Shown here: positions 2,361 through 63,935 of the stretch, piece after piece
Layout of the letters: every line of letters starts with the position of its first letter
How positions within the stretch are numbered: the stretch's first letter is position 1
Origin: Timema cristinae
Lineage: Eukaryota; Arthropoda; Insecta; Phasmatodea; Timematidae
Assembly: GCA_039000515.1 (NCBI GenBank)
Contig: JBCFYV010000012.1
Location: forward strand, 8,612,287-8,676,286
DNA length: 64,000 nucleotides
Reading direction: 5' to 3'
Translations under genes and position numbers: made by a program
The notes under the pieces: model-generated
What the model was told of the DNA's origin: nothing
Databases searched by the model: none
The model's input: the letters and a program-made list of their open reading frames with translations, nothing else

Positions 2361-2749
2361 ATTGAAATTATATCTAAACATAGATCCTTGATCCATATAA
2401 AATGAGGAAAGGGCAACTTTTCCCCTTTCGGTTTTGGCTTACCTCTTTACACTTACCAATGTTAACAACCCTCATAGTTTGTCATCTTATCCGAATTTCA
2501 GAGATATACCGAAACACAATAGAATTCTTCTCCCGTTTGCAAATGAGCTATATGGAAGCTTAGAAAATCTGAACTATATCTCCTTGAATGCATACAGTGC
2601 AAGATAGTGTGGAAGTGGCACATCGAGATAGGGTAAAATATTACAAATAAAACGAGCCTCGTGAAAGTTCTTGTGTATGAGTACATCACTTACAAGAATA
2701 TTCCGATCATGTTCATGTCGTTTTGATACAATTGTGAATATCAGATGAT

Positions 2750-3430: not shown

Positions 3431-3468
3431 TCGAACATGCTTCTATCCAAAGCCTATACTGTTACGCC

Positions 3469-3774
3469 CTAACTGAATGACGAAAGTGAAACCGAGATGG
3501 ACTCTATGACTAGTTTCGTTATTGGAAGATAAATTATATTATTAGGTGCTTCCACTAACTTATAGCTTGGAGAAACAGTCATGATGAACTCGTGAAGGGT
3601 ATGACCCGATTCTGTGTCTATGTAAGATCCGCTAACAAGACTGCATTCGACATGGATCACATTCACATGCAAGATATTTACAGTATTTGTAGAGATGTTC
3701 ATTATCCCCTCAGGAAGAACAACATGTTCGAAACCTAGCAGAGATGTGAACGTGACTGATCGAGTACAATACAA
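3469..3774 (-). pseudogene. Second uncharacterised Maverick/virus-like protein fragment
   Basis: This is a 101-codon minus-strand frame. Its second half, around the residues NIIYLPITKLVIESISVSL, resembles the C-terminal end of another uncharacterised protein that recurs in insect Maverick/Polinton-like or integrated virus-like loci. The reading frame ends early compared with what I expect of the family, so it is truncated or frameshifted. It lies directly upstream, on the minus strand, of the fragment at 3109-3430, and the whole cluster is repeated at 61680-61985. The function is unknown. Confidence 0.4.
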
Positions 3775-4398
3775 AATACAAATATTAAAGCGAATATTGC
3801 TTAATATATATTTAAGGGTTGTGGCTCTGATTTTTTTTTCTCTTGAAGGAATTTTTAAACATAATTTACGAGCATCTATGAGTGGAAGTGTTCATTAAGT
3901 TGTAAGCGTACGCAGATATCATAACCTATATCTACAGACGCTAATCATCATTTGCATCCTCCGTATTTAAGAAACAGAACCGAAAGCAGGAGAAATGGGT
4001 CCTCGTCGCCTAAAGAAAAAAGGATGTCCCATTAGTCCTCTAATGTATTGTTACCAACGACGCAAAACTGTTTAGAAATGGCAATGGAATAAAGTATGTT
4101 AATTTAGGCAAAAATATCGGGAGATCATAAGAGAAACAAACATTGCACAATGATAGTTCAGGATAAGAGCACCAACCAGTCTATTTACAAGTAAATTGAG
4201 TACATTAAGATATATTCAGTATATTCATATACTAGCTAAGTACAAGTCGAGATATTAAAAGTTATAGTGAAATCGCAGACACTCGTTACTGATTTTAAAT
4301 ATTCATTAGATTTGCTCAATTATGTATGATTAGATATTATATTAAAATATGTTGAATTCTGACGACTCTTTATGTACAATTTCTTTTTACTTGTCTAG

Positions 4399-4620
4399 AT
4401 CTAACCGATGAAGATATAGTAGCTCAAGCAATGGTTTTCTTTCTGGCTGGATTCGATACAGCTTCCACGCTACTTTGCTACACCGCCCACTTGCTGGCAG
4501 TGAACGAGGACTCCCAGGTTCAACTCCAGTCTGAGATAGACGACATGCTGAGGGAGACGGAAGAAAACATCAGCTACGAGGCAATCCAAGCCATGAAGTA
4601 CCTGGATATGGTGATCTCAG
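4399..4620 (+). CDS. Cytochrome P450 copy 1, exon 5 (I helix)
   Basis: A 222-nt exon, phase 1 in and phase 1 out, between acceptor TCTAG and donor GTGAAG. It encodes DLTDEDIVAQ followed by FFLAGFDTAST, the distal I helix with the A/G-G-x-D/E-T-T/S oxygen-activation motif (here AGFDTAS). It then continues through helices J and K up to the residue before the ExxR glutamate. The composition fits CYP9/CYP6-type clan 3 enzymes, which act as heme monooxygenases on the ER membrane. It is identical to 62610-62831. Confidence 0.95.
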
Positions 4621-5158
4621 GTGAAGCCAATGTAGCATTGCTTCACTCTTTTGCTCTATGATAAAAACATATTCTGTAGGCTGTCGATACTCATAGTGTC
4701 GTTGATAACTAACATCAGCTTCTCCTTAAAAATTGACACAGTCCACTCGTTCTGAAGATATAACTTACTAGAGGCCATTCTTCTTCTCATGGGATTATAT
4801 TTACATGGAATAGTTATTTATAGAGGTACGTTCCTTTCACCTTGAAAAGTATCAGTCATACCATTAGCTATTACATTATGACTCTTTCTTTTAAGCTGCA
4901 CCATAGTAGAAGCCAATCAAGGTAAGTTGGCGTTCTTACAGGGTAAATGAAAGGTACTGTGCATATAAGATATTTATAAATGTTTGTCATTTTAGCCAAC
5001 TTAAATATTTAGGTTTGAACTATTTCCTTTAAAACAGTTCACATATGTTAGTGGAAAGCATAAATAAGAATCTCAATCTCAATTGTTTTGATTATTTAAA
5101 ACAGTTTTGATTCTTTTAAAACACATAGTTAAGTGATAAAAATGTTTTTTCCCTCCAG

Positions 5159-5421
5159 AGTCTCTAAGAATCTTCCCACCAGTGGATAATGTGGATAGAG
5201 TCTGCGTCAAACCATATTCGATCCCCGTCAAAGGCAATCAACCCGGCACCACATTCCAGCTGGATGACATTGCTTTGATCCCCATACTAGGATTACACAG
5301 AGATCCGGAGTTCTTCCGGAGCCTGACAGGTTCGATCCAGAGAGATTCAGCGAGGAAAACAAGTCCAGTATTAAACCCTTCACTTACATGCCCTTCGGTA
5401 TCGGCCAACGGTCGTGCATTG
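5159..5421 (+). CDS. Cytochrome P450 copy 1, exon 6 (ExxR to heme loop), frameshifted
   Basis: A 263-nt exon with acceptor CCTCCAG and donor GTAAGTT. The split codon plus the first bases give ESLR, the ExxR of helix K. The frame then runs to HRDPEFF, after which a single base is missing (a CC where CCC is expected, about 5316-5317). The +1 frame then resumes with RFDPERF and the heme-binding loop FGIGQRSCI, whose Cys is the heme-iron thiolate ligand. Phase with exon 7 works only if one base is restored, which supports a true 1-nt deletion rather than an intron boundary. The exact same deletion is in copy 2 at about 63528-63529. Confidence 0.93.
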
Positions 5422-5639
5422 GTAAGTTACCTTGTTATTTGGATGATAGCTACTATTAAGGGTACTTTCTATGTATTCGATAATAACATTTTTGCACTTT
5501 CAAAAATCAAGTGCTCAGTTGAAATATTTAAGATTTTTTTATTATTTAAAAGTATTTCTAACTGGTACAACTAGCCGTCACAAGCTTCTATTTTTCCATA
5601 GTTAAATATAATTTATATATATATATATATCACACTAGT

Positions 5640-12011: not shown

Positions 12012-12318
12012 ACTTGAAGTAAAGTATAGTAAAAATATAAAACGATACATCAACCTGTAAATGAAAGATAAATATAATTCAACTATACCGATTCTGTTCG
12101 GAATAAACATAACAATTAACATTTAAATTTTGTAAAACATTCAATTAAGTTGGGTTTGATACGAAATTATTTAATATTAAGAAAACTTTATTTTAATAAT
12201 AAGGTAATTGGTTTTCTGATACATTTTGAGTAAATGCGAAAAAATTGAAACAAAGTAAGTAGCTTTTAGCTAAGCTCGTTGTTCACAATGAACATGAATA
12301 ACCTTTATTAGTTAATTA

Positions 12319-12485
12319 TGTGGGGAATGCCAGGCCTCCACCGTGGTTCGGATCCCATGTTAAATTTTAGGTCCTCCATTTCATCTCACTACCACCTACC
12401 ATCACACATTAGCGTAAGTGCGTATAACCCAAACGGGTAGTAAGACGCGGTGCTAATAATAATAATAATAATATAATAATAATAA
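12319..12485 (+). mobile_element. 5'-truncated tRNA-type SINE, family A
   Basis: Starts near GGGGAATGCCAGGCCTCCAC, runs through CCATTTCATCTCAC and GTGCGTATAACCCAAACGGG, and ends with GTAGTAAGACGCGGTGC and a (TAA)n tail. The tRNA-like head seen in the copy at 25701 is missing. Confidence 0.8.
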
Positions 12486-12606
12486 AAATTCGTTAATTAA
12501 AAGTAAAAGAAACGTATTAGTTTTTTTATAAAACATTTTTTTTTTAATGGAGGGAATGGCAACTTTTAAGGCATTGGATCGGTATCTTATGTTTCACGTT
12601 ATTTAC

Positions 12607-13040: not shown

Positions 13041-13916
13041 TTTTAAAATATTAAACCATTAACATGTTTATTAATAATCGATACAATTAACAATAATATT
13101 ATATAATGCTGAAGTAGTACTGTTTATATTTACCATTATGTTCATGTTCCCTTGTAATTACGGAATACTATTTAAATCGTACTAGGGAGTGTTTTAAGTA
13201 TAAACTAAAAAATATAAATACATTTTTAAATAATTAAAATGAGTTGTCACATTATGTTAAGCTATCTATTGAATTATCTATTGGACTTAAGTTCACGAGA
13301 GCTCTATCGGCAATTAAATTGTCATTATCGGCCTTGGTCGGAGTGTTGATGTATTCAACATATAGGTTGAATATAAAATGATTAATGATAACTCTTATAA
13401 TGTTATAACATTTTAATACCATCATTATCAATGTATTTATTTCAATGACGTGGAAAAGGAGTTCTATTTTCCCGTGCTTGAAAGTTGTTAGTTTCTCCTT
13501 ACTGATTTGTACTAGATCTAGTTTAACAATATTGCTGAAACTTCGCCTGCAGCTAATATAATTAACTTTTTTGTATTATATGATGAAAGTATGTATTATT
13601 TTGATATTATTTTGTAGGCAGCACCATAAAATAAATTAAAATGTTAATTATTGTAATATATTATAATAATCTAAATACACTTGGATCCTATTTTATTTAC
13701 ATTTTTTGTTACATTTAATGTTAAACAAGAAATTTAAAAATAAACTAAGGAACTGAGCAGCTCATTTTTGTTGAAAATCTGGAAGTATTGGAGACCAAAC
13801 TCAGGACCTCCGGATCTGTAACCAGGAACTCTGACTCAACTATCGAAGTTCATATTTTGGTGAGTAAACTTTTCTCACAGTATTCTGTGTGTAAAAATGA
13901 TAGAAATATTAATTTT

Positions 13917-14446
13917 TCAAGTACATTACCGTGCTGATACTCCACTTAGATTGTTCAACTACATTACCGTGCTGATACTCCACTTAGATTGTTCAAGTAC
14001 ATTACCGTGCTGATACTCCACTTAGTTTGTTCAAGTACATTACCGTGCTGATACTCCACCTAGATTGTTCAAGTACATTACCGTGCTGATACTCCACTTA
14101 GATTGTTCAAATACATTACCGTGCTGATACTCCACTTAGATTGTTCAAGTACATTACCGTGCTGATACTCCACTTAGTTTGTTCAAGTACATTACCGTGC
14201 TGATACTCCACTTAGATTGTTCAAATACATTACCGTGCTGATACTCCACTTAGATGTTCAAGTACATTACCGTGCTGATACTCCACTTAGATTGTTCAAG
14301 TACATTACCGTGCTGATACTCCACTTAGATTGTTCAAGTACATGACCGTGCTGATACTCCACTTAGATTTGTTCAAATACATTACCGTGCTGATACTCCA
14401 CTTAGATTGTTCAAGTACATTACCGTGCTGATACTCCACCTAGATT
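13917..14446. repeat. 38-bp minisatellite, 14 units
   Basis: Head-to-tail units of TTCAAGTACATTACCGTGCT followed by GATACTCCACTTAGATTG. Fourteen copies of the ACCGTGCTGATACTCCAC core can be counted. Units differ at a few fixed positions (AAGTAC/AAATAC, TTAG/CTAG, GATTG/GTTTG) and two are 1 bp off length. There are no spacers and no coding frame. Confidence 0.97.
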
Positions 14447-14970
14447 TTTTATTCTAATTTTAATGATGGCTTACCACGACCATATCAGTCAAAGAATTTG
14501 TATGAAACCCGAATGAATATTATAAAGAGATGCTAACTAAGTAAAAGCATTATTGAGCATTATGTGGAGATGATTATCACTCATTATCATAAGCGCAACA
14601 CGTATATTTGGAAGTCGGTCACCAGATTCTGGATTACAAAGAATAAAAAAAAAATCTTGAAGTGATTTGACAATCATAATCCTTTTTTACAATGATCAGA
14701 AAAATAACTTGTGCCCATCCCAACATTTGTAAGCAGATTTCACTATTAATTGCGATAAGTCAAAATAGATTGTAAAGAAAACCACATAAATGCAGAATAT
14801 CACCATTCAAAACAAAGTTGCTGGATCCATAATTCAACATCTGTGAAGAGCAAGATAGAGTTTTATGATCTAACCCTGCTCTATTTGACGAGGTTTCCAA
14901 TAAGATACCTTAATAAGTCTTGCGGAAATAGCACACCAACATACACATGATACTTCATTGATAGTGTGTG

Positions 14971-15126
14971 CAACCTGTGAATGTGAGGAATGCCAGGCCT
15001 TCGCCATGGTTCGGATCCCACGTTAAACTGTAGGTCCTCTATTTCATCTCACAATCATCCTACCGGTACACATTACCGTAAGTGCGTAGAGCCCGAACGG
15101 GTAGTAAGATGTGGTGCTAATAATAA

Positions 15127-15179
<53 letters not shown>
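14971..15179 (+). mobile_element. 5'-truncated tRNA-type SINE, family A
   Basis: Starts CCTGTGAATGTGAGGAATGCC, contains CCGAACGGGTAGTAAGA, and ends in a long (AAT)n run to 15178. No tRNA-like head is present. The Asn- and Leu-rich frames over the tail are artefacts of the trinucleotide repeat. Confidence 0.82.
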
Positions 15180-23010: not shown

Positions 23011-25068
23011 AACACACAAACACAAACACTTACTTTACCTATGTTTTATCAATACAGATTGATTTAGGTCATCATTCGTTAAGGAGTGATAAACCATAAA
23101 AACAAGGGATGTAAGCTTTAATAAAAAGTAAAATACCTTGAAAAGTAATTAGAATTTTTGAAATATTTCTCTAAGGTTTAAAATCTCATCTTTGAAATAA
23201 AAGTATAAATATGTCAAAATTAAGACCAATGTTACTTACCCATGAATATTTTACAATCTAGTAGGTGTAAGAAAACACAAAATTACTGAATACATTAACT
23301 TTTCAAATGTACTCAATAAACAATTAAACATTATTAAATGTATTCAATAAATAATTAAAGGCTAACTATAAAACTGGTTTCAAGTTGTTAAACAGACAAA
23401 ACTTGAACACTTCAACCCGAACAATACCTAAAGACATCTAAACAGACCTTCTGTTCCAATAGCATTAACAAGAACATTTCTTGGAAATACTACCTCAAAA
23501 TAAATGCACGCGTACAACCCCTAGTCCTATTAAAAAAATTACTTTAACTTCTCATTGTTTTCTGAACCCAGGTAAAACTAAATAATGGAATAGCCGCAAA
23601 CCAACAGTTTTACTTTTTATTTTCTCACGACCTCTTGGAGAGAAAGTATTATGATCATCGACAAAATTTAACCCAATATTTGGATAAATGTCAACGTGTC
23701 ATGTCCCGTGAAACAAAATAAAGTTTTCTTCGTGGGCTAGAGCAGAGATTATTTTATCGATTGAGCTTAGATTTAGTATCTGGTGTTTTCATAAGATATC
23801 TCCTAGGGATTTTGGAATTAGATATCTAACCCTAAATTTAAAGGTAGTTTACTGAAGGGCAAAAATAGAAAAAAATCTATTTTCTCGAAATTCGCAATAG
23901 ATATTTTGATTACATTTTATATCTAGCCATTGTTTATCATTATAAACAAGATGGAAATTTTAATTTTCTCATGAAAATGACTGAGGGTATACTTCATATA
24001 GGGGACTTTTCCAATTTTCATAATTTCTCCGCAACTATTTGAGATACGAAATAGCTTATCATTGTAAAATTGTAGTACAGTTAAAGATAACAATCTTTTA
24101 TTTGAAACATATTTTGATAAAACCAATAGTAACTGAGCTATAAGTAAATATATATATATAATATACTTTTTAATTAAGGTCTTTGAAAATGAATTTGACT
24201 CTTGTGCTCTTTGGTGGAGAAAGATTATTTCTTTTTTCCCAATTTTTCTGTAACAGTGCTCCTAGTTCCTAATGACATAGCGTAGGTGTATATTATTTAA
24301 TTTATGATCTTTGGTGTAACGTTTTTTACAACAATGTTTAAACCTATTTCGTTCCACAAATCTTAAGAATTTTTAGTAAATGCATATTTTAAGATCAAAG
24401 CGGGAGAAAGTCTGTGCGGTGCGCTGTAACATTTATTTTATACTTTATTTCTACAACTTTTTTTTTCAAGCTAAGTTTATGTTTGAGGGAGAGGGGGGGA
24501 GTGTTGATCCTGTAATCCCCACCCACCATTAAATACGACTGAATGTATGTACTCAAAGCACATGGACAAACGGCTATACAATTGTTTGAGATTTAAAATT
24601 TTTCTTCACCGCTATAAAGCAGTCGTACGATGGTGCGCGCGATGCCAATATTGAACGTTGGATATCAGCTGATTAACATTAGGCGAATAGTATTTTTTAA
24701 TAAGTAATGAACTTGTTTGAATTAAGTTGTCAAAACTACTAGTTTGTTTTGTTTGTATTTATATTGAGTGAAAATAGTCAACAATGTATATTAACATTTA
24801 AAAACATGTTATAACAAATATTGTTGAAAATTGATTCAACATGAGGCCAAATTTTACTAGTGTGATGGATAGTGATTTCCCCTTTGCTAAATAAATATTC
24901 AAACAGGTCAATTATATGAGCCAATTTCCATCCACGTGAGGCCAAAATCATCATTACTCCTATGAACAAAATATGACTTTTGCCCCCCATAGCTCTGTAT
25001 GAAGAGGACCTCACTTCTAAGCTACCGCGCATTTACAATGAGTCCTTATATTTATGCATCAGGTTTAT
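23011..25068. other. Intergenic, no recognised gene
   Basis: AT-rich with stops in all frames. A GGTAGTTTACTGAAGGGC phrase near 23842 links it to the repeat family described at 29150-30720. Confidence 0.5.
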
Positions 25069-25270
25069 ATTATTATTATTATTTATTATTATTATTATCA
25101 CTGCATATTACTACCCGTTCGGGTTATACGCACTCACGCTAATGTGTAATTGTAGAGTGATTGTGAGAAGAAATGAAGGACCTACAGTTTAACGTAGGAT
25201 CCGAACCACGGTGGAGACCTGGCATTCCCCACATTCACAAGTTGTGATTAATACACGTCTTGTTAGAGGT
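25069..25270 (-). mobile_element. 5'-truncated SINE family A, inverted
   Basis: On the plus strand: (ATT)n, then ACTACCCGTTCGGGTTATAC, then GAAATGAAGGACCTACAG and CCACGGTGGAGACCTGGCAT, extending to CACGTCTTGTTAGAGG. This is the reverse complement of the copy at 25701-26006 and stops before the tRNA-like head. The two form an inverted pair about 430 bp apart. Confidence 0.82.
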
Positions 25271-25700
25271 TAAGTATGCAGGAGGTATTTGTTATTAATT
25301 AAAAGACCATCAGTTTTATTCGTCAGGCTGTGTGTAATAAACACAACACACACACACATATATTCAATGGTTGTTTTATTAAACACATGGGGATGTGACA
25401 ATTCTACTCAGTGACGGAGGTACACTTCAAGTTTAATAGGAAGAACCTTAGCTGACAGAAAATCTGCCAGATCTACTTTCAGGTATTCATACTTCAAGTC
25501 ATGTGATCAACAGCTGTAACTTTTGATAGATATCAAGACCTATAAAATAATACTGACAATATAATATAATGTTATCAATTTTGACAGAAAAAAAACTATT
25601 TGCTCAAAGGTCATTCCTATAAAAATGGGATTTTAGAAGCAAATCGTTTACTTTGATACAAAAATAAGATGCCACATCATATTCTCTGGTTTACATCGGT

Positions 25701-26006
25701 TGGGGTGACCTGGCGGTCTAAGGGCAAGGTGTCAGACCTCTATGCTGGGTTCCAGGGTTCAATCCTCGGTCCCGGCACAGATTTATCTGATTGACAAACC
25801 CTTCCTTAACCTCTGACAAGACGTGTATTATTCACAACTTGTGAATGTGAGGAATGCCAGGCCTCCACCGTGGTTCGGATTCCACGTTAAACTGTAGGTC
25901 CTCCATTTCATCTCACAATCACCCTACCTTATACATTAGCGTAAGTGCGTATAAACCTAACGGGTAGTAAGACGCGGTGCTAATAATAATAATAATTAAT
26001 AATAAT
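25701..26006 (+). mobile_element. Full-length tRNA-derived SINE, family A
   Basis: The head GTGACCTGGCGGTCTAAGGG resembles the D-arm and A box of tRNA-Leu. The B box GGTTCAATCC is near 25757, followed by TCGGTCCCGGCA. The body runs through GAATGCCAGGCCTCCACC and CGGGTAGTAAGACGCGGTGC and ends with (TAA)n. About 305 bp in all. Pol III transcription is inferred from the boxes. Confidence 0.85.
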
Positions 26007-26941
26007 AAATATACCGGTTGTTGACAAACGCGCACGTGACGTATGTTGTTTGCTAGTGGTATAGTATGTTATCTGTCTGTACGGACTATAAATACACGTA
26101 CTCATTGTATATAGTGATCTGTTTACTGCCCATCATTAAACTAGAAATACACATACTCATCGCATCTAATGAGGGTGCATTTTAGATATGTTGTAAGAGT
26201 GTTTCCCTGGAATGGCAATTCGCACAAATAAAGAACAACAATAAAATAAAAATTAACACAGAGCTGTCTGAAATAGTCTATACTTGTTTTATTATGTGTT
26301 TTTTTTAAGTTAGTAGGCTGATATGGATTGAATGTCATTCATAAAATGTTTCACAATTTTCTTGTGAAAAATCAAACTCTAAAATTTGTTTCGATCAATA
26401 TGAAATTAAAATTTCATCTGCTAAATGGTCCCGAGTTCAAGTATCGCTCTGGTTAAAAAAATATACCATTGATCAAATTAGGGATTTTCCCTTTCAGATT
26501 TAAGAATTCAAGGCTAAAGGATGATGTGTATGTTTCTTTTCAAGTTTTGATAGTTTGTATGCCACGTACTTATATAATCGGAGAGTTTTAAAAATATAAG
26601 CTAGGAAAATGGAGGCTTCACAGAGATAGTGGATGCTATTGAGATGAGAATAACGTAGACAGGGAATACTTTCTCCGGAATATGGCGATGGATGCATCGC
26701 CGACATAAGTCGAGGGAAGGCGCACATGTTTGTAATTGGTTACATGATACGGCCCTCCAACGAAGTCCTCCCTCCCCCTCCAACGACTTCCCCAGACCAA
26801 AGGAGGAGCAAAATGATGTTCATCCGCGCAAGAGGAAAGATATCTTGTGTACACTATTAAAGGGCACTGTAGCCTTCATAATAAACTTGCACAAACATGC
26901 TCTCTACAACTGGGAGGATAAGCTTAAAAGCCCTTCTCACG
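26007..26941. other. Intergenic, with a promoter-like patch
   Basis: CTATAAATACACGTACTCA at about 26085-26103 is partly repeated 55 bp later as CTAGAAATACACATACTCA (26140-26158), so the TATA-like box may be part of a small direct repeat or an LTR remnant. A 103-codon plus-strand frame at 26692-27003 runs into the MITE and resembles nothing I know. Confidence 0.35.
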
Positions 26942-45849: not shown

Positions 45850-46076
45850 CAAAGGAAAAGATCGGTATAAGATTACGGCTACAAGTATTTCGAAAGTAGG
45901 TTGGTTATATTTTATCTCACATGGTCTAGATCAACGCACATATTGCACAAACACAGCCCGTTACACACCTCTCCAATCCACCACGTTCGCAATTCCACGC
46001 ACTCACGGTCCTCTCTCTCCTTCACAACAACCAGTCTCGCCAACTTCACGGAATAAGTTTCGGTGAGTTTCTAACA
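45850..46076 (-). repeat. LTR (3' LTR of the element)
   Basis: Shares TATCTCACATGGTCTA, CACATATTGCACAAACAC, CCACGCACTCAC and TTTCGGTGAGTTTCTAACA with 50960-51239. It has a deletion of about 40 bp relative to that copy. The left boundary is approximate. Confidence 0.7.
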
Positions 46077-46231: not shown

Positions 46232-47489
46232 TCACATCGCTCCGGTGACAAAATCCTTTAGGTACTTGGGCCGATGTCGTTCTCGAATAGGCCGAGTCCT
46301 TGCTTGGTCTCTTTCAGTTTCACCGACATCAGAACTGTCTGAAAATGTCACAGGACTGATATCAGGGTTGGTTGTTTTCAGCTCTGATCCATTTGACCTA
46401 TCATCTTCTGACTCGTCACTCACAGGTTCACCAATATCAATCTGGTCTTTGCTACCCCATGACTCGAGTTGAGAAACGTGCGCAGTGGTGGCATAGTGTT
46501 TCTGTTTAACATCTCCTGTCAATTGACTAACTCGATAAGTGTTGCCATCTGGGAACACTTTCAACACCACAAGAGGACCTCTGTACTTCGATGCCTTTTT
46601 TGGTTCGCCAGTATGCACTGGTGTGCGTCGATCATCACCACTTCTCCAATGTTAAAACTTGAATGAGTATACCTTCTCTTATCAAAATATGCCTTCTAGT
46701 GAAGCTGTTCTACTATGATTTTATTGCGTACTGTTTCCTGTATTTCTGCAGGTGGTTGGTACGTGCTGTTCCCAGGTACATTGGTGGGACTCCAAAGTGC
46801 CCCATCATGATGCCGAGGTCGATAGCCGTGAAGTGCCTCAAAGAATGATATCCCAGTCGTCTTGTTGATAGCAGTGTTGAAGTCACGTTGAATCGTCTTA
46901 CTTTCTTATCTCAGTCCTTTACGTCTGCTCACTGAAATGAAACGGATATCATTGGCGTCAAGGTTGGTTCACTCGTTATACGTGCCCATTGGCTTGGGGG
47001 TGTCTAGCAGAGTTTAGTATATGGTATATTGCACGTGAAACACAAAGTTCTTCAAATACATATGAAGTGAAACACGTTCCTCTCTCACTGATTATTTTTT
47101 CCGGTAGACCACGCTCATAAAAAAAATATCAAGGCACTTCAATACACCTTTGGTGGACGTATCACGCACTGCATAAGATGCATAGATTTTGTCAGGTTAT
47201 CCACGATTACAAGGAGTTCACAATTACCCTTTGAGCTTCGAGGAAAAGTTCCTAAATGATTGATGTGCACAATTTGAAAAGGCCAAGTGCCTGGAGGTAT
47301 TGGGTTGAGTAGACCAGCTTTTCGTCGCCCTGGGACCTTACTCAAGAGGCACTCAAAGCAGTGAGCTATATTATGCTTAACATATTTTTTCATGCCAGGA
47401 AACCAGCATCCTCCTAGCATCTCCACATCACCTCCAACTGCACTATCCATAGCTATATCAGAAACTATTCTTACCAATGAAGTGATCAC
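46232..47489 (-). pseudogene. LTR retrotransposon integrase relic
   Basis: Read from 47489 down: a zinc-binding remnant (H...C..C in NIAHCFECL), then the core start PFQIVHINHLGTF and VIVDNLTKS. A later broken segment near 47060-46990 has LNSARHPQANGHV, the usual block before the last catalytic Glu. A C-terminal domain frame (46618-46232) starts with KYRGPLVVLKV and ends in a charged tail. The core position where HxDH is usual reads HINH, so the first catalytic Asp is lost. Several frameshifts. Confidence 0.75.
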
Positions 47490-47813
47490 ATTTTATGTGG
47501 CCCGAACACATATAAACTCTTTTTAAAAGGTTTAATTGTCAACCCAGACTTGATGGCTGCTGTGGCTTGTATTGTGCAACAAGAACTGCCTGTGTCTATT
47601 AACGACATAAATGATACAGGTCCTATCTTAACTTCCTTCAGGTATTTATCCAAATCTGCAGTTATGTTCCTCTCAGTGTTAGTGATTCGAATATGTTCTT
47701 CCGCTTGCCTGTTTCGGTTAGTACAGAAACACCTGGTATGACCCTTTTGGCCACAAACTAAACATTTTATTGGTCCTCTTGTCTCCGAGCAGTCTCGAGA
47801 CATGTGTCCATAA
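47486..47813 (-). pseudogene. Gag zinc knuckle end and retroviral-type protease remnant
   Basis: Reading from 47813: GHMSRDC (the end of one CCHC knuckle), then CLVCGQKGHTRCFC (a second knuckle), then about 40 residues later SLIDTGSSCC, the aspartic protease DTG active site. The frame ends soon after and the next minus-strand sequence is integrase, so RT and RNase H are deleted. The first half of the first knuckle lies across the nested insertion, near 49760. Confidence 0.75.
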
Positions 47814-47820
47814 TTTGCAC

Positions 47821-49752
47821 CCTACCTTTTAGAGCTAAAAGGGAGGGGTGCAAGTATACATAACACAAATAACATTGAAAGCAACAATTTATTGGGTGAA
47901 CACATTAGATAATACATAACCAAATCAATGGAATGTTCATAGGATTTTGGTTGTCCATTATTTGCTTATCACAAGCAATCGTAGGCGTTCTCTTCAACAG
48001 ATTACAAAGGAATAATACAGCTGGCTAGCAGCCAAGTAGTGCGTCTGGGGGTACCCTAGAAACCAAACTATATTAGATATTGGCTAAAGCCACAAGTACA
48101 GTTTACTCAAAATGCCCTAAGGCGGACCCTAACCAATAAAATACTCAAGTGTACCCGTTTAGGTAAACAAGCTAAACGGCGTTAAGGTCATGCCCACGGT
48201 ACCGGGAGTCAACTGTACCTCACAATCTAATAAATAGTACGCCCCAATAGGGGACCTACAGCATTGGTAGAGGTATACCAACACCGAGTTAAATATCAAG
48301 GTTTACAATTAGAAAGTACATAATATAAGGGTAACTGTCCTCCAGGGCGAGGCTTAAGGCGCTCGTCTAATGGAAGAGATAAAGCAACAACCCAGCGACG
48401 CCCTGCGGTCTCGCATATACTCGAAAATCCCAAAACAGGGGCTACAATAATACTAAATAGCAATAAAGTAGGCGGGTCCTAGAACAGGCCCGGACAACCC
48501 AATTAGGCAGATAATTACTTCCAGTAACTCCCTAATACCCAAGGCAGACGTACTCCACAGTAACAATTGTATTTAACAAATCTTAACAACAATACAACGC
48601 TTCAGCGCAACTATTTTTATTTAGTCGAGGCACCCACATATTGATATGAGTAAGTTCCCTACAGGTATAAAAGCTGACATGTAACCAACACAAAATTTAA
48701 CTTATGGTGAACCCACACTACCAATACATTTGGGCGTAGCATCAACCCTAGCACGCTAGTGTGGAGAAGGTAGGCATTCCCACTTTACAGAGTATACAAG
48801 AAACACGTGTAAACAAACTGACTAGCTGTCCGAATGGGGCCTAGCCGTCTACTAGTCATCCAACTGGTATAAAGGCTAAAACATAACCAACATAAAACTT
48901 AAACAATGGTGAACCCATGCTAACAATATCGGTGGGCAGACCACCCAACCCTAGCAGCCAGGTGTAGCTAAGGTAGGCATTCCCACCTCACAGAGTACAC
49001 AAGAAAAACATATTAGCAAAACGAACTAACTGCCCTAAGAGGGCCTAGTTCGCTGCTACTCTTCACTCAGTTAGTCGGACGATATCACATCCATATTACT
49101 ATAGTCGGTTGCACGCCAAGAGTTCAGCGAAGTAACAAGACCTCCACCATGTCTCCTTCAAACAAGTACGGTACCTTACAGTAAAACAAGTTCATTAGCC
49201 ATTGGAAAACGTAGCCAACGATCCTCTACCCCAATTGTTTCTATTGGAAAACAATAGAGCGTAGAGTGCACCAGCAGATTAATATGTTGTGAGCAAACCA
49301 GCAGTGGCGGGGGCTAGCTCAGGCGAGCTCAGGATACCACTCCTTTGGACGCCATAGCGTCCTGATGTAGAGGTGAAGATCCTCCGAGACACAGCCGAAT
49401 AGAACTATAGTAGGTCAGCCAGTCGGTTCTATACAATAAAAAAAGGTGTTTTTCTCAGCACGACACTCGTAGTACCAAAAAAAGGAAAGTACGGAAAACT
49501 CACCGCCAGGGATGAGAACCAGGGATAAGAGAGGGGTGGAAGAATAAACCAATCGCACCTCAGGAAGGCCACGCATGCGCAACCAGCCAAGAGGGGAGTA
49601 AAAAGGTGGGGGGGCAGAAATCAAACGACGGAAAAGTCTAGGGGTTTAGGGGTAGAACATGAGAATTCCCGACAGACGCCAAACTAGTCGGTAATTAATA
49701 TTTCATAACAGGCAATCACTTGTGCGAGCTAAATCATTTTAGCTCGGCACAA
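47821..49752. mobile_element. Unclassified 1.9-kb non-coding insertion with a hairpin at each end
   Basis: This sequence splits the first gag CCHC knuckle: CFNC lies just right of it and GHMSRDC just left. Each boundary is a strong palindrome. 47815-47853 has arms TTGCACCC and CCTTTTAG paired with CTAAAAGG and GGGTGCAA. 49720-49752 has arms TTGTGC and AGCTAAA paired with TTTAGCT and GCACAA. Both share the TTG..C plus TTTTAG/CTAAAA scheme. The inside is GC-richer than the flanks, has no credible ORF and holds a tandem duplication of about 200 bp (48664-48845 and 48866-49049). No clear target-site duplication was found and the exact edges are uncertain by a few bases. Confidence 0.6.
48664..49049. 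repeat. Tandem duplication of about 200 bp inside the nested insertion
   Basis: Both units run GGTATAAAAGCTGACATG-like, ATGGTGAACCCA, AACCCTAGCA, GGTAGGCATTCCCAC, CAGAGTAYACAAGAAA and GGGCCTAG in the same order, at about 75-85 percent similarity by eye. Confidence 0.75.
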
Positions 49753-50435
49753 ATTTTAACAATTAAAACAACGTTGTTTCCGTTTTTGCATTTTGATAGT
49801 ACGTTGAATCTGGTCGCTCATGCTTTATTTCATTTTGAGATGGTCAGCCTCTTTCTTGACTAATATCGTGTAAGCTGCCCATGTCACTTCCGGTTTGTAG
49901 TCCTAGCCTAGGTTGCTTACCTTATCTCCATGAAACCTGTTTCCCAGGACGATTTGCAGCACGTTTTGAACGCTGTGCATTCACTTCTTCGAAATCCCTT
50001 ATGTCATGAAGGAGGTAATCCAGGTCATCATGGTGTTTGCTTATGAGGAGAGTACTTAATTCACGTGACCACAGGCCAATCGCAAGTTGTTTATTAGTGT
50101 CTGTGAACTCTAATCCCATGTATGTTCTCATTTTTGTCTTGCATACGGCTCTTCATTTGATCAATTTTTTCTGTGAGGCTTAAAGTTCCCACAAAGGTCC
50201 GTCGAAATTGACGTTCGAATTGGTCCCAGCTGACTGTTTTTGATAGATGGGACCGATACCAATGTTGAGCTGCACCTATGGGGTGAGTCCTAGGGACTCT
50301 AACTTGAAAGGATTCTGCCATTTATGGAGTTCCACCATGGTGTTTTTTATCTGTAGCCACTCAGACGCGTTCATTCCTGATGACTCACCATTAAAGTGGG
50401 GGATGGTTTTCGCTAAGTCAGGCATTATATTTTAA
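49753..50435 (-). pseudogene. LTR retrotransposon gag (capsid) relic
   Basis: Minus-strand frames: 50321-50094 holds HPIGAAQHWYRSHL...WDQFERQFRRTFVG, the typical retrotransposon Gag capsid pattern (A..WY...W..F...F). 50131-49922 continues with FTDTNKQLAIGLW. Further down, in another frame, comes KRKQRCFNC, the first half of a zinc knuckle. At least two frameshifts. Confidence 0.7.
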
Positions 50436-50959: not shown

Positions 50960-51239
50960 AGAAAACCGGTTACGCATTTAAACTCAGAAATGGGTAAATT
51001 CTATGTTCATCTCCCTTCTGATTTATTGTATCTCACATGGTCTAATTATCGCACAATTGTTGGTCAACATAACATATTCTACACACATATTGCACAAACA
51101 CGCCCCGTTACACAACCCTCGCTCACACACCTCTCATCCCGTTCGCATGTCGACATTCCACGCACTCACTGTCCTGTTTCTCCTTCGCAGCAACCAGTGG
51201 TTCCAACTTCACGCAATTAGTTTCGGTGAGTTTCTAACA
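50960..51239 (-). repeat. LTR (5' LTR of the element)
   Basis: The outer end TTTCTAACA at 51239 equals the inner end of the other LTR at 46076. The left limit (near a possible primer-binding site) could not be fixed. Confidence 0.7.
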
Positions 51240-51835: not shown

Positions 51836-52252
51836 ATGACCCCCAGAGAGGGTCCGGCTCATCAACACCCACCAGCAGGAGGAGGAGCGGTGCCTAGACC
51901 GGCAGCGATCGTTCCGACGAGAGAGGCGTGGCAGTCGTTACTCCCACCAGACACGGCCCTGCTGGAGGTAGATGAAGCATCCGCTTTGAGGGCCACCCTA
52001 GCCCTGAAAGCAAAATCGACTGATCTCCCATCTGGACGGGACAAACACCAAGTGAACTTCCTGCTTACAATGACTTACAGATACCCGGATATACCGGCCC
52101 AGACCCAACAGGTGCTAATACACCGGATAAACACAATAAACATTGTCCTAACAAAGGGATGGTCCACAGATATAGTGGCAGCAGGAGGTGACACTATATT
52201 TGGTATCCATCGACGGGGAGGTTCGTGTACCAATCCTGGTTTTGTACACTAG
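51836..52252 (+). other. Unrecognised 139-codon frame in GC-richer patch, possible transposon relic
   Basis: An open frame with Pro/Gly-rich start and mixed helical middle (TALLEVDEASALRATLALK), ending TNPGFVH. The frame reads open upstream (EDRFRNIETHLYRM). Composition differs from the surrounding intron. It recalls ORF1/gag-like proteins of retroelements in style, but I cannot name a family. It lies in intron 1 of P450 copy 2 and has no splice sites joining it to the gene. Confidence 0.25.
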
Positions 52253-52542
52253 GGGCTAGTGTCAAAAACCTTAGCTCAGTTCAAATCTCATTTGTAAACT
52301 GAGATAAGGGTCGTTGCCTCGATTTTATTTATGGCTGCGTAAGATATTATTAGTAGCACGTCAGTTTCAGCTTTCACAGTGATTATTTTACGACAAAGGG
52401 TCTGGATGTTTGTTTTGTTTTGGAGCGCATTTAGTTTGTAAGTCCTGGGTTTATTTAAAAAAATGTTTAGAGAGCATACTCTAAATATCTATTTTAATAA
52501 TAAACCAAGTCATCACATTTATTTAGTAACTTGTGTGTGTAG

Positions 52543-55230: not shown

Positions 55231-56340
55231 GTGGTCTTAAACTCAAACTCGTCAAAGGATCAGATTCACAAACTCGGATTGCTTTGCGGGCCACAGTCTA
55301 TAAAAATATGTTCACTTAAATCTGTTAAATATTTTTGTCTTACTACCCTTCCCGAAAAGCAAAGTAAGGCGGTCGTTGGGAAAAATGCAGAAATGTTATT
55401 AGAGGCTAGTAAGGAGATAGGTTTAGAAGAGAACGCTTAAAACACTAAATATATGATCACACAGAGACAACCGATTGGGCTCAATAATTTGAAGATTACT
55501 GAGAACAACATATCATTTGGTGACTGGCGGTCTAGGGGTAAGGTGTCAGACTTCTATGCTGGCGGCCGGGTTCAATCCTCGGTCCCGGCAAAGATTTATC
55601 TGATTACCAAACCCTTCCTTCACCTCTGACAAGACATCTTGTGAATGTGAGGAATGCCAGGCCTCCACCGTGGTTCGGATTCCACGTTAAACTGTAGGTC
55701 CTTCATTTCATCTCACAATCACCCTACCATTACACATTAGCGTAAGTGCGTATAACCCGAACGGGTAGTAAGACGCGGTGCTAATAATAATAATAATAAT
55801 AACATATCATTTGACAGTGTTAATGATTTTAAATATTTGGAACAGTTTTAACTACCAATAATGATATTTGTTTAGAAATTAGGAAGATAACACAGCATGC
55901 TATAACTCGGTCAGTATGTTGTTGACATCTCACCGGCTGTCAAGGAATGTAAAACTAAGGATATAAAAAACAAAAGTTTTACCGGTTGTTCTCTGTGTGC
56001 ATGAAACGTGGGCTCTTACCCTACATGACGAAAACAAATGTAGGATGCTCTAAAGGGAGGTATTTGGTCCAAAAAGGGATGAATGAGGCTACTGGGGAGG
56101 CGAGGTCACATAATTTTGAGCTATATACCCTGTACTAATTAAAAGACATTGTTAGGATAGTAAAGTATCGTAGATTACGGTGGGCAGGACATGCAGCGTG
56201 AATGGGAGATTCTAGAACCTTGTTAAGGATATTAACCTGCAAACCTAATGGGAAGACATAGATATAGATGGGAGGATAACATTATAATGGACCTGAAAAC
56301 GATAGTATGTAAAGATGTGAACTGGATATAGCTATCTCTA
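55231..56340 (+). pseudogene. LINE pol C-terminal relic split by a SINE
   Basis: Plus-strand pieces in changing frames: LLEASKEIGLEENA (about 55395-55437), LKITENNISF just before the SINE, then after it FKYLEQF, DISPAVKECK and the RRLRWAGHA block (56172-56200), followed by NPMGRH-type remnants. These match the end of the RT domain and the R-R-x-R-W-x-G-H tail of insect LINE pol. Stops and frameshifts throughout. Confidence 0.7.
55520..55800 (+). mobile_element. Full-length SINE family A with 13-bp target duplication
   Basis: The head is GTGACTGGCGGTCTAGGGGT, B box GGTTCAATCC, body as in 25701-26006 and (TAA)n tail to 55800. It is flanked by AACATATCATTTG at 55507-55519 and again at 55801-55813, a clean LINE-type target-site duplication. 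It interrupts the LINE relic frame, so it is younger than that element. Confidence 0.92.
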
Positions 56341-57419: not shown

Positions 57420-58460
57420 CTGAACCCAAAAAAGTAGATTTTACCCTTATGTGTGTCCCCATGTTTGTCTCTCTACTTCTCTGGCTACATTTTTGAAACA
57501 GTTTTATGGATTTGGTTCATACTTGATATTTAGATGTTATATGGCAATATCTAGGTTTTTTAAAATTTAGACCCTACCACTAAGGGTAGTGTACTGATGA
57601 GTGCTTTTTTTGAATTTCAAATTTTTCGAAAGTAAATATAACGATTTTATACTTGATTTTTGGGTAAAAATTCGGCTTACTGATAAATGATTTTAGACAT
57701 TTCAGAATATTGAGAAAATGGCTCTAACAATTTTGTTTAAAATTTTGATTTGGGTTGCTTTTGATGCACTCAAATAACATTTTATACTTGTTTATTAGGG
57801 CTAAATTCGTTTAAGGGTATTTTACTATTGATGGAATAAAGAAATTGAAACATTTTAAAACCCACTCAATTGATTTGGTTAAAAATAAAATCTGGTAAAT
57901 AAAATGTGTATTTATTTTTCTTTAAAAAACATTTACAAGTAGTTTATTGATAACTGATTTAGTAAAAGTGGCATTTTTAGAAAACAATCTTAATGCTTTT
58001 GTTCAAAATATGTATTGAAGTACTATTTTATTTAATAAATAATATAATACGAGTATAACATTTTTTTAGGGCACCTTACATTTGACAGATCTTAAAAAAA
58101 TTTGAAATATTTTTAAGTTGACCTTGAATATTGAGCACAAAAGAAATATCAGGGAATCGATTTCATGATAAATAAGAATAGGCTACATTTTTATTTTTAC
58201 AAATTAAAAATAATAATAGTAAGGTGGTTTACAAATAGATTATTTTTGAAAATTATTAAAAATTTGTTAGAAATATTTGAACAATTTGGTTTAATATTTA
58301 TAATAATACTTAGAACCGCGTCTTACTACTGTTAATAGTTATATACCGAGTGTTTTAATTGTGATTAAGAAGATGAGGTTTTTTTATTAGGAAAAATTAA
58401 GGGTAGTTTACTGAAAATTTATTTTTGAAAATGTTCTTACAAGCTCTAATATATAAAGGA
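57420..58460 (+). repeat. AT-rich repeat with AAGGGTAGTTTACTGA phrase, plus orientation
   Basis: AAGGGTAGT.TACTGA-type phrases occur near 57583, 57808 and 58400 (the last equals 200-225 in copy 1). The stretch 57440-57600 is the reverse-oriented match of 30560-30720. Family unknown; part of P450 intron 3. Confidence 0.6.
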
Positions 58461-59790
58461 TTGTGTTGTACTATTTCTTCGTATATTCTTTATTTGCTAG
58501 TTTGGACACACCAAGATATAGTCTCGGCAAATATACAACCTTTAGTTAAGTTGTAGAAACAAGTATTCCTAAATTTAGATAGGTGGTAAGAAAATAAATA
58601 AATAGTAAGCTACATATTACTACGCGTCAGGACTATCCGAATATTTAAACTAATGGCGAATGATTGAGTATTATTAACTTAAAATAAATATACCTGTGTT
58701 TCAGGTGAGGGAGTGTGGGAAACCATTTAGGAAATAATTCGTAGAGTGCTACGCACGTACTTTCTAGCTCCTTTGCCGATACATAACATTTACCCAAAAA
58801 TGTAAATATTTACTTAAGGTTGTAAGATATGTAAAAATAAATAATATGCACTGTTGCATAAACATAAGGAAAAGAGAGCATCACTCTACACCAAAGAGCA
58901 TAACACTCAATTCTACATTTTTTAGACCTCTATTTGCTCTTAACTTGGAAACTACTGGTTCTAAAATAAAGTCAATAAAAGTATTTTATTTTAAATATTC
59001 CTACAACTTTGCAATTACAAGATTTTTACTATCTCAAATAGTAGTGGAAATACGATCAAAATCTGAGATATTTGCTCACATAAAGTACTTTCCAAGTCTT
59101 TTTCCCAGAATAATAATCATAGCCCGATTGGTAAAATTATTTAGACTATAGGCCGAGATACAGAAATACATATAGATTGCATCACGAAAATAACTTTTTC
59201 GGGTTTAAAGGGTCATGGAACAAAATTTCAATTCCATTTTTATAAAAATTTCTTTCATTTTACGATGGCAATAATTCCTCTCTCCAAGGGTTCGCGAGAA
59301 AGTAAAACTACACCGAGTACACCAGTCTGGAACTGGGCCATGTGACCACTCATATACATCTTAGTCATAAAATATATGGATTAAAACATTAACATTATTT
59401 ATAAAGTGATTACTTAAAATGTTTAAAGCTAAACTAAATAAATCTATTTGAACGAGTATTAACTTTCTTTGGCATTTTTACTTCTCTGGCAATATTCTAT
59501 GTCAATTTTATTAATTTATTTTAAAATACTACAAGGACTAGTTTATAGGGTTTATAATTTATCCTCTTGAACAACAATTTTTGATATTATTTATTTTAAA
59601 ATAAATTACCCTTAACCTCTGTTGATGTGAAATCTAGCTCATTAGTATAAAATTGTTTTACAGTTTGAAAGGAGAAACGTTTAGATGGGCCCGAGAAAAA
59701 CGTTTTATTTTCTCTCTTTTTCTTCTACCATAAATAGTCGTATACATTTTTTCAGTAACAAATTATGTTTATTTTTGTCTCACTGATTAG

Positions 59791-59998
59791 ATGTTTAGAA
59801 TCCCCTTTTTGGCAAGAGGGCCGAGCGACTTCTTCAGAAACTTGGTAAAGACCAATATTCGAACAAGAGAGAAGGAAGGGATAATCAGGCCTGATATGAT
59901 CCATCTATTGATGCAAGCAAGAAAAGGGGAGCTCACCAAGGATACACAGCAGGAAGAGAATCAAGGAAATATGAGCACTGGCAAGGCTGGAAAACTAG
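59791..59998 (+). CDS. Cytochrome P450 copy 2, exon 4
   Basis: Identical to 1582-1789. Phase 0 in after exon 3 (57039) and phase 1 out at donor GTATGT. It codes for the region between helix G and the I helix, with charged linker residues KGELTKDTQQEEN. Confidence 0.93.
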
Positions 59999-60054
59999 GT
60001 ATGTAAAGTACCGTACATGTTTAAAATAGGGGAAATTTCAATCTTTTAGAGCCG

Positions 60055-60570
60055 ACTTTATAATCATTTTTCGATGAAAATTTGAACTTAGCTGACTCTA
60101 TAACATTTTCTGTACATCTACTTTGTTAAGTCTTATCTCAACTTAAATAATGAGAGAGATGGGTACCATCCGACATTAGAGCATTTCTCGATGAAAATTC
60201 AATCTCGGCTGACTCTATAGCATTTTGGGAGAAAACTCCATCTTATTAATCTACCAGCCGACTCTAGAGCATTTTAGGATGAAAATTTGAGCTTAACCGA
60301 GTCGATAGAGTTTTATGGGGAAGGTTCTATCTAATGACAGCTTGAGGGCATTTTCCAAGAAAAATTCCAACTTAGCCTACACTTTAGAATTTTCCGGGGA
60401 AAAATTTGATCTTATTGTGCTACTACCTGACCAGATCATTCTCTGATTAAAATTCGAGCTTAGTCGACTCTGTAGTATTTTACGGAAGAAAATTCGATCT
60501 TATAATGCTACCACCTTAATCTAGAGTAATTTCCTATGTAAATCTGAACTTAGCCTACGCTGTCGAATAT
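60055..60570. repeat. Degenerate tandem array, second copy
   Basis: Duplicate of 1845-2360 with one extra T near 60354. Confidence 0.7.
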
Positions 60571-60954
60571 ATTGAAATTATATCTAAACATAGATCCTTG
60601 ATCCATATAAAATGAGGAAAGGGCAACTTTTCCCCTTTCGGTTTTGGCTTACCTCTTTACACTTACCAATGTTAACAACCCTCATAGTTTGTCATCTTAT
60701 CCGAATTTCAGAGATATACCGAAACACAATAGAATTCTTCTCCCGTTTCAAATGAGCTATATGGAAGCTTAGAAAATCTGAACTATATCTCCTTGAATGC
60801 ATACAGTGCAAGATAGTGTGGAAGTGGCACATCGAGATAGGGTAAAATATTACAAATAAAACGAGCCTCGTGAAAGTTCTTGTGTATGAGTACATCACTT
60901 ACAAGAATATTCCGATCATGTTCATGTCGTTTTGATACAATTGTGAATATCAGA

Positions 60955-61336
60955 TGATTATCATTTTAGCTCAATCAAAAACCTTATCTCGGTTAATAAA
61001 TCCTCAATGAGGGTTACATAGCATAGCAGACGTCGATACTTTTGCGATAGGTGTTTTACCTCTTTTCTGAGTGACAATAAACTTGCAAAACATAAGGAAG
61101 TGTGTACCAAGTATTGTGCTGTAAGGAGTACTTTCCCTCAAGAGGAAAATAAATTCCTCAAATTTAAACAGTATCGGATTTTCACAAGAAAGGATTGTAA
61201 TAATCGATTTGTTGAGGCACTCGTAGATACGGAAAAGCACCTAACCGACTACTATAGTACAGTTGTTCCTAAGAAACCTCTGACTCCAGTTCAAGTATCG
61301 TTCAAGGATTGTAATGAGCTACACGATCGTCAATGA
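60955..61336 (+). pseudogene. Protein-primed DNA polymerase B relic, second copy
   Basis: Same as 2750-3125, but the T run near 61181 has one base more. The plus frame therefore stays open from the zinc-finger-like part through residues ending NELHDRQ at 61336. The longer frame keeps the spacing expected before the next cysteine pair of such polymerases, which suggests that copy 2 is closer to the ancestral sequence here. Still only a fragment of the N-terminal part. Confidence 0.55.
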
Positions 61337-61640
61337 TAGACGGAAGGCTTTAGTGTTGGTGGGGATGTTTTCTTCAGTATCGAACGTTACACAACATATT
61401 ATCAAACCGTTCTTGAGTGTCTCTTCCTGATGGCTGGCATCAAACACAATGATGTGTGCGTGTGATTTGAAAATTGGAGGGTTCATTAATGGTAGGGAAG
61501 AGTTAATTCTGTAGTAGTAAGTCTGAAAACTAACTTCGTATAGTTTCGAGAAGAAATCTTGGTTAGAGTCCAAGTTCATGTTCTCCTAAGGGTACATTAC
61601 TGAGTTCAGTTAGATTTTAGTCACTAGTAGGCAACAATGA
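61319..61640 (-). pseudogene. Uncharacterised Maverick/virus-like protein fragment, second copy
   Basis: Identical over its open frame (61579-61319) to the fragment at 3109-3369; see there for the basis of the call. Confidence 0.45.
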
Positions 61641-61679
61641 TCGAACATGCTTCTATCCGAAAGCCTATACTGTTACGCC

Positions 61680-61985
61680 CTAACTGAATGACGAAAGTGA
61701 AACCGAGATGGACTCTATGACTAGTTTCGTTATTGGAAGATAAATTATATTATTAGGTGCTTCCACTAACTTATAGCTTGGAGAAACAGTCATGATGAAC
61801 TCGTGAAGGGTATGACCCGATTCTGTGTCTATGTAAGATCCGCTAACAAGACTGCATTCGACATGGATCACATTCACATGCAAGATATTTACAGTATTTG
61901 TAGAGATGTTCATTATCCCCTCAGGAAGAACAACATGTTCGAAACCTAGCAGAGATGTGAACGTGACTGATCGAGTACAATACAA
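61680..61985 (-). pseudogene. Second uncharacterised Maverick/virus-like fragment, second copy
   Basis: Identical open frame to 3469-3774. One extra base lies just upstream of the shared region's end near 61659. Confidence 0.4.
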
Positions 61986-62609
61986 AATACAAATATTAAA
62001 GCGAATATTGCTTAATATATATTTAAGGGTTGTGGCTCTGATTTTTTTTTCTCTTGAAGGAATTTTTAAACATAATTTACGAGCATCTATGAGTGGAAGT
62101 GTTCATTAAGTTGTAAGCGTACGCAGATATCATAACCTATATCTACAGACGCTAATCATCATTTGCATCCTCCGTATTTAAGAAACAGAACCGAAAGCAG
62201 GAGAAATGGGTCCTCGTCGCCTAAAGAAAAAAGGATGTCCCATTAGTCCTCTAATGTATTGTTACCAACGACGCAAAACTGTTTAGAAATGGCAATGGAA
62301 TAAAGTATGTTAATTTAGGCAAAAATATCGGGAGATCATAAGAGAAACAAACATTGCACAATGATAGTTCAGGATAAGAGCACCAACCAGTCTATTTACA
62401 AGTAAATTGAGTACATTAAGATATATTCAGTATATTCATATACTAGCTAAGTACAAGTCGAGATATTAAAAGTTATAGTGAAATCGCAGACACTCGTTAC
62501 TGATTTTAAATATTCATTAGATTTGCTCAATTATGTATGATTAGATATTATATTAAAATATGTTGAATTCTGACGACTCTTTATGTACAATTTCTTTTTA
62601 CTTGTCTAG

Positions 62610-62831
62610 ATCTAACCGATGAAGATATAGTAGCTCAAGCAATGGTTTTCTTTCTGGCTGGATTCGATACAGCTTCCACGCTACTTTGCTACACCGCCCA
62701 CTTGCTGGCAGTGAACGAGGACTCCCAGGTTCAACTCCAGTCTGAGATAGACGACATGCTGAGGGAGACGGAAGAAAACATCAGCTACGAGGCAATCCAA
62801 GCCATGAAGTACCTGGATATGGTGATCTCAG
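62610..62831 (+). CDS. Cytochrome P450 copy 2, exon 5 (I helix)
   Basis: Identical to 4399-4620: acceptor TCTAG, donor GTGAAG, phase 1 in and out, AGFDTAS oxygen-activation motif. Confidence 0.95.
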
Positions 62832-63370
62832 GTGAAGCCAATGTAGCATTGCTTCACTCTTTTGCTCTATGATAAAAACATATTCTGTAGGCTGTCGATA
62901 CTCATAGTGTCGTTGATAACTAACATCAGCTTCTCCTTAAAAATTGACACAGTCCACTCGTTCTGAAAGATATAACTTACTAGAGGCCATTCTTCTTCTC
63001 ATGGGATTATATTTACATGGAATAGTTATTTATAGAGGTACGTTCCTTTCACCTTGAAAAGTATCAGTCATACCATTAGCTATTACATTATGACTCTTTC
63101 TTTTAAGCTGCACCATAGTAGAGCCAATCAAGGTAAGTTGGCGTTCTTACAGGGTAAATGAAAGGTACTGTGCATATAAGATATTTATAAATGTTTGTCA
63201 TTTTAGCCAACTTAAATATTTAGGTTTGAACTATTTCCTTTAAAACAGTTCACATATGTTAGTGGAAAGCATAAATAAGAATCTCAATCTCAATTGTTTT
63301 GATTATTTAAAACAGTTTTGATTCTTTTAAAACACATAGTTAAGTGATAAAAATGTTTTTTTCCCTCCAG

Positions 63371-63633
63371 AGTCTCTAAGAATCTTCCCACCAGTGGATA
63401 ATGTGGATAGAGTCTGCGTCAAACCATATTCGATCCCCGTCAAAGGCAATCAACCCGGCACCACATTCCAGCTGGATGACATTGCTTTGATCCCCATACT
63501 AGGATTACACAGAGATCCGGAGTTCTTCCGGAGCCTGACAGGTTCGATCCAGAGAGATTCAGCGAGGAAAACAAGTCCAGTATTAAACCCTTCACTTACA
63601 TGCCCTTCGGTATCGGCCAACGGTCGTGCATTG
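63371..63633 (+). CDS. Cytochrome P450 copy 2, exon 6 (ExxR to heme loop), frameshifted
   Basis: Same 263-nt exon as 5159-5421, with the same missing C at about 63528-63529 between HRDPEFF and RFDPERF. As written, translation leaves frame before the heme loop. The other frame, from about 63540, encodes FGIGQRSCI and ends at donor GTAAGT. The final exon (homologue of 11794-11969) should follow several kb beyond the window. Confidence 0.93.
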
Positions 63634-63832
63634 GTAAGTTACCTTGTTATTTGGATGAGCTACTATTAAGGGTACCTTCTATGTATTCGATAAGAACATT
63701 TTATGCACTTTCAAAAATCAAGTGCTCAGTTGAAATATTTAAGATTATTTATTTATTTAAAAGTATTTCTGACTGGTACAACTAGCCGTCACAAGCTTCT
63801 TTATTATGTTACATACAATTTTTTTTATATAT

Positions 63833-63935
63833 ATATAAATATATACACACATATACACATACATACACCCTAGTATATATATCCACTAGTGGATAGTTAT
63901 ATATATATATATACACACTAGTGGATAGTTGCAGC
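63833..63935. repeat. Expanded (TA)n/(CA)n microsatellite with duplicated CACTAGTGGATAGTT
   Basis: Copy 1 has a simple (TA)n followed by one CACTAGTGGATAGTT (5634-5648). Here the tract is longer, has TACACA units, and the CACTAGTGGATAGTT phrase occurs twice, around a further (TA)n. Confidence 0.85.

Follow-up and report, generated by a model that had tools for sequence, protein, structure and literature searches.

Within the 64-kb window (the whole stretch of DNA analysed, 35% GC), a discrete element of 1,936 bp splits a zinc knuckle in the degenerate gag of a gypsy-like element, which is read on the minus strand. The element, its insertion site and the surrounding (host) retrotransposon comprise the following features.

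45913-46076, minus strand: LTR-like repeat of the host, one side (edges by eye)
47142-47492, minus strand: host frame with a weak match to an integrase zinc-binding domain (Pfam Integrase_H2C2)
47489-47811, minus strand: host, rest of zinc knuckle 1, zinc knuckle 2 and protease-like LIDTGSS (motifs by eye)
47812-47815: left copy of the target-site duplication, AATT (AATTT, 47812-47816, in a 5-bp reading)
47815-47853, no strand assigned: left-end hairpin, its outermost T taken from the duplication; by eye (plus strand) one U-G wobble, one mismatch and one bulged G
47816-49751, plus strand (orientation slightly preferred): the element, 1,936 bp, TGCACC...GGCACA, probable solo LTR
48658-49048, plus strand: two-copy tandem duplication, units 48658-48844 and 48860-49048
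48666-48671, plus strand: TATAAA in the first duplication unit, candidate promoter
48868-48873, plus strand: TATAAA in the second duplication unit, candidate promoter
49435-49440, plus strand: AATAAA followed by GGTGTTTTT, candidate poly(A) signal and GT-rich downstream element
49720-49752, no strand assigned: right-end hairpin, its outermost A taken from the duplication; one bulged G, stem otherwise paired
49752-49755: right copy of the target-site duplication, AATT (49752-49756 in the 5-bp reading)
49759-49770, minus strand: host, start of zinc knuckle 1 (CFNC)
51029-51239, minus strand: LTR-like repeat of the host, other side (edges by eye)

Judged from the weak integrase match (E = 0.00067, 20.2 bits, under the cut-off of 25.5 bits), the motifs recognised by eye and the two LTR-like repeats, which are 78% identical over 162 bases, the host is a gypsy-like retrotransposon in decay that runs on the minus strand. 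No Pfam family was found for the frame at 47489-47811, and two pieces of the host used as protein queries gave no homologue. At 47142-47821 the protease-like motif almost directly adjoins the integrase-like frame, and the host reverse transcriptase and RNase H may therefore be missing.

Elsewhere in the window, cytochrome P450 fragments were found in two of nine frames searched against Pfam (E = 1.2e-15 and E = 0.00038, the latter below the cut-off). Genes of this type suggest that the window is animal, probably arthropod, DNA. A 5.6-kb stretch that includes a P450 match (frame 4356-4658) is present in two copies, 1-5630 and 58190-63836, which are 99.1% identical and 58 kb apart and represent either a recent segmental duplication or an assembly duplicate. 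The second copy has extra pieces of 22 and 51 bp at about 63800-63927, where a palindrome holding CCACTAGTGG lies beside TA-rich repeats. Self-comparison also showed a tandem array at 13909-14450 (period about 76 bp, units about 93-97% similar), and a dispersed repeat family has members of about 160-300 bp on both strands (12318-12489, 14971-15155, 25062-25274, 25704-26015 and 55519-55802; about 85-93% identity between members).

When the two flanks of the element are joined minus one copy of the duplication, the minus-strand gag frame reads CFNC*NYGHMSRDC, which has the exact CX2CX4HX4C spacing of a zinc knuckle, with a single stop codon at a variable position. A direct repeat of 5 bp, AATTT, is present on both sides (47812-47816 and 49752-49756). 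This repeat can be read as a target-site duplication of 5 bp (element GCACCC...GGCACA), of 4 bp (TGCACC...GGCACA) or of 2 bp (AT; TTGCACC...GGCACAA), and under all three readings the empty site is identical and the element plus duplication amounts to 1,940 bp. The 4-bp reading was preferred because it gives TG...CA termini, although the sequence does not force this choice. Among 15 x 16 pairs of possible boundaries, 4 had a repeat of at least 4 bp, three of them being shifts of the AATTT repeat, and given a 4-bp match rate of 0.00575 in 20,000 random pairs about 1.4 such pairs are expected. The direct repeat alone is thus weak evidence of insertion and could be due to chance; it is the combination with the restored knuckle spacing that makes the insertion convincing. 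The base composition also differs, with 34.5% A and 21.5% T in the element as compared to 26% A and 32-36% T in the flanks. These results confirm a precise, discrete insertion of non-coding DNA in a decayed retrotransposon gene. A previous sequence-only reading had proposed such an insertion in the gag zinc knuckle with edges at 47815 and 49752; the discrete element was borne out, and the TTG..C outer arm given for its palindromes is one base wider than the TG..CA element defined here.

Each end of the element is a strong palindrome. In DNA folding, the left and right hairpins had z-scores of -5.14 and -5.73, respectively, and none of 200 shuffles of either sequence was as stable. The whole 64-kb window was also scanned for compact hairpins, with overlaps within 12 bases merged, and the left (score 35) and right (score 30) hairpins ranked second and joint third. 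First place in the window goes to an AT microsatellite, and an AT-rich palindrome shares the score of 30. Over 20 dinucleotide shuffles of the whole window, top scores ranged between 24 and 32; a score of 35 was never attained and a score of 30 was attained in two. Neither edge hairpin is present in an ungapped inverted-repeat listing of the window, probably because there is a bulge in each stem and the arms are extended without gaps in that listing. The outermost T-A pair of each stem borrows one base from the flanking repeat. What weighs most in the finding is that an insertion defined independently of them has one of these hairpins on each edge, and the palindromes noticed in the sequence-only reading hold up both in the folding that it had called for and in the scan. 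Two further adjacent hairpins, with scores of 26 and 29, are located at 52240-52310 and are unlinked to the element.

The two hairpins had also been described as having the same architecture. They do have the 8-mer GAGCTAAA and GTGC/GCAC outer arms in common, but their overall similarity is weak, being matched by 10/400 and 31/400 shuffles in the two orientations, and is at most suggestive of a relationship. Where an LTR would have short inverted repeats of about 7 bp, the termini here compare as TGCACC versus TGTGCC, and the inverted similarity of the two 60-base ends was near that expected by chance (46/400 shuffles).

As the sequence-only reading stated, the interior is non-coding and contains a tandem duplication of about 200 bp. 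The longest stop-to-stop frame wholly inside the element is 76 amino acids, and among the six longest internal frames no Pfam match was obtained except one with E = 0.09, below the cut-off. Self-comparison gave 75% identity between the two duplication units over 189 aligned positions at an offset of 202, and Tandem Repeats Finder listed nothing at this duplication. No terminal direct repeats joining the two ends were present in the repeat listing of the window.

The candidate promoter and poly(A) motifs occur on the plus strand in the order found in LTRs. The plus-strand AATAAA at 49435 has G or T at 10/12 downstream bases and lies about 316 bp before the end of the element, and the only two TATAAA motifs are both on the plus strand, one in each duplication unit, with none on the minus strand of the element. 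The AT skew of the element is +0.233 on the plus strand with T-rich sequence on both sides, and in a scan of 621 overlapping intervals of the window the one starting at 47801 had the strongest positive skew; one other region, near 53 kb, had a larger skew of the opposite sign. Given the lack of TATAAA on the minus strand and the A-rich plus strand, the plus orientation is slightly preferred. This preference is weakly supported because AATAAA with a GT-rich downstream stretch also occurs twice on the minus strand (11/12 G or T each). TATAAA and AATAAA are short motifs that can be obtained by chance in A-rich sequence.

Searches for related copies were performed both inside and outside the window. 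Self-comparison of the 64-kb window showed no related copy: aside from the left palindrome and its own internal duplication, the element matched only pieces of 24-25 bases with E values of at least 0.12. No related copy was found in a phage collection by blastn, and the two hairpin patterns had no match in a viral contig collection. A 17-mer from the tandem duplication matched 5 stretches of viral contigs and 18 stretches of prokaryote genomes. When the element was compared with all 23 loci by BLAST, only pieces of at most 48 bases were obtained (best E = 0.003), and three pieces from one MAG reflected a GC-rich repeat common among themselves. The 17-mer loci and the BLAST pieces were taken as chance matches.

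From the single copy examined, the element is probably a solo LTR of a long-LTR retrotransposon. Benachenhou et al. 2013 (PMC3601003) describe as LTR motifs short TG..CA inverted repeats, AATAAA and a GT-rich stretch, together with a TATA box that is less conserved, and LTR elements are described as generating target duplications of 4-6 bp (PMC5659011). The solo LTR interpretation is favoured by the TG...CA termini in the 4-bp reading (other readings being possible), by a duplication of AATT or AATTT that fits 4-6 bp (a shorter reading being possible), by the TATA and poly(A) motifs and by the absence of terminal direct repeats, and it makes a new class of element unnecessary. Counted against it is that the TG..CA ends are a choice among three readings of the duplication (2, 4 or 5 bp), that the inverted repeats formed by the termini are short and imperfect and that 4-bp boundary repeats are expected by chance in a scan as permissive as the one used. 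The 5' end, TGCACC, agrees in the first two bases only with the published consensus TGTTRNR. The 64-kb window showed neither a second copy nor a paired-LTR parent, and neither a primer site nor a polypurine tract. Drosophila errantiviruses are described as preferring palindromic 4-base targets, TATA, CGCG or ATAT (PMC5408687); AATT is palindromic like these but is none of the three.

The main rival is a non-autonomous DNA transposon that has two separate hairpins as its ends in place of a single pair of inverted repeats, each hairpin being recognised by a transposase that makes a target duplication of 2-5 bp. We consider this unlikely, even though both hairpins stand out in the window and even though both hairpins lie at the very edge, share GAGCTAAA and the GTGC/GCAC arms (weakly, as judged from the shuffles above), and under the formally allowed 2-bp reading (AT) have TTGCACC...GGCACAA ends that are the exact outer edges of the stems. 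There is no trace of a transposase in the listed frames or in the six frames searched against Pfam, the TATA boxes in a duplicated region and the LTR-like layout are not expected for such an element, and a mechanism without a name is needed, whereas a solo LTR needs none. More doubtful still is a new kind of non-autonomous element with hairpin ends, in which a recombinase or transposase would recognise each end as its own hairpin and make a duplication of 2-5 bp. The sequence-only reading had offered both a new hairpin-ended type and a solo LTR, and the motifs and ends favour the latter of the two.

The single copy could also be a fragment, truncated or rearranged, of a different repeat, or host DNA that was captured, with AATT and hairpins flanking it fortuitously, and short motifs and 4-bp repeats do arise by chance; such an origin is improbable given that the knuckle spacing is exactly restored minus one duplication and that strong hairpins are found at both edges. 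It is very improbable that the element is a part of the gypsy-like host itself, inside which it is situated, since the zinc knuckle that it interrupts has exact spacing once the insert is taken out, the composition shifts at its edges from T-rich on both sides to A-rich inside, and the host LTR-like repeats (at about 45.9 and 51.0 kb) gave no match to the element at E <= 1. The hairpins likewise appear not to be part of the host, an origin that the sequence-only reading had named as contrary to its proposal: the joined flanks restore the knuckle spacing without them and the host has its LTR-like repeats elsewhere.

Several known classes were examined and rejected, and the exclusion of the first three agrees with the sequence-only reading. 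Helitrons have TC...CTRR ends and insert without target duplication; here such ends are absent and a duplication is present. For a classical TIR DNA transposon, the end-to-end inverted alignment was reached by 46/400 shuffles and no repeat pair joins the ends. SINEs have a Pol III promoter and a simple 3' tail; a SINE was rejected since no tail was seen by eye, ARAGORN found no tRNA gene, and Rfam gave two matches in 47700-49900 (E = 0.017 and 0.23), both far below the gathering scores. A complete small LTR element (TRIM or LARD) was rejected on the absence of terminal direct repeats.

If the element is a solo LTR, its full-length parent would have been inserted by a DDE integrase into the gypsy-like gag, which is older, and would have lost its interior and one LTR when its two LTRs recombined. 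In the plus orientation, U3 would begin at 47816 and reach about 48.7-48.9 kb, and the two TATA boxes would be those in the tandem duplication. The end of R would fall a short way past the AATAAA at 49435, which leaves about 290 bp for U5. The left hairpin would then open U3 just after the polypurine tract and the right hairpin would close U5 beside the primer-binding site. The hairpins may give the RNA a structure near the primer site and the tract, or may shape the cDNA ends that are gripped by the integrase, and as a hypothesis we suggest that they have a role in priming or in presenting the cDNA ends to the integrase.

If copies share the hairpins, they would define an LTR family in which both ends are self-complementary. 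These ends would be the very sequences that are gripped by integrase and that adjoin the primer site and the polypurine tract, and such a family would allow a test of selection on RNA or DNA structure at LTR edges. If no paired-LTR parent exists, this would point to an undescribed mode of transposition.

Foldback elements have long inverted repeats between their two ends, whereas the two ends of the element described here do not pair together beyond chance. Foldback and Mutator-foldback (Tm1) elements are similar in that they are named for foldback or hairpin ends and, as described, have target duplications (PMC3169594). In the fungal GalEa elements (Copia), the Conserved Hairpin Site resembles the present hairpins in being located at the junction of LTR and interior (PMC5445492). 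In that account the hairpin is conserved, lies directly after the 5' LTR with a palindromic arm that includes the final A of the LTR, and is possibly part of a larger hairpin spanning the junction (PMC5445492). It thus follows the 5' LTR of a fungal Copia element, whereas here the hairpins lie at the element's own edges. In the literature searched, which was mostly non-subscription, no LTR was seen described as having a hairpin of its own exactly at each end, which is weak evidence. Sire has a stem-loop at the 5' end of U3 that pairs with sequence outside the LTR, and retroviruses have the stem-loop U5-IR; both are described as RNA structure at the start of U3 or in U5, near the polypurine tract or primer site, as would apply here (PMC3601003). 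Compared by description, the stems of the present element are internal save for the outermost pair, whereas the Sire stem pairs outside the LTR. There is also a likeness in layout to solo LTRs of animal Ty3/gypsy elements (Metaviridae), as described in the same source, which agree in TG...CA, the 4-bp duplication reading, AATAAA with a GT-rich stretch, a TATA box and non-coding sequence (PMC3601003). Compared with these by motif list and not by LTR sequences, the present element differs in having a strong self-palindrome at each end.
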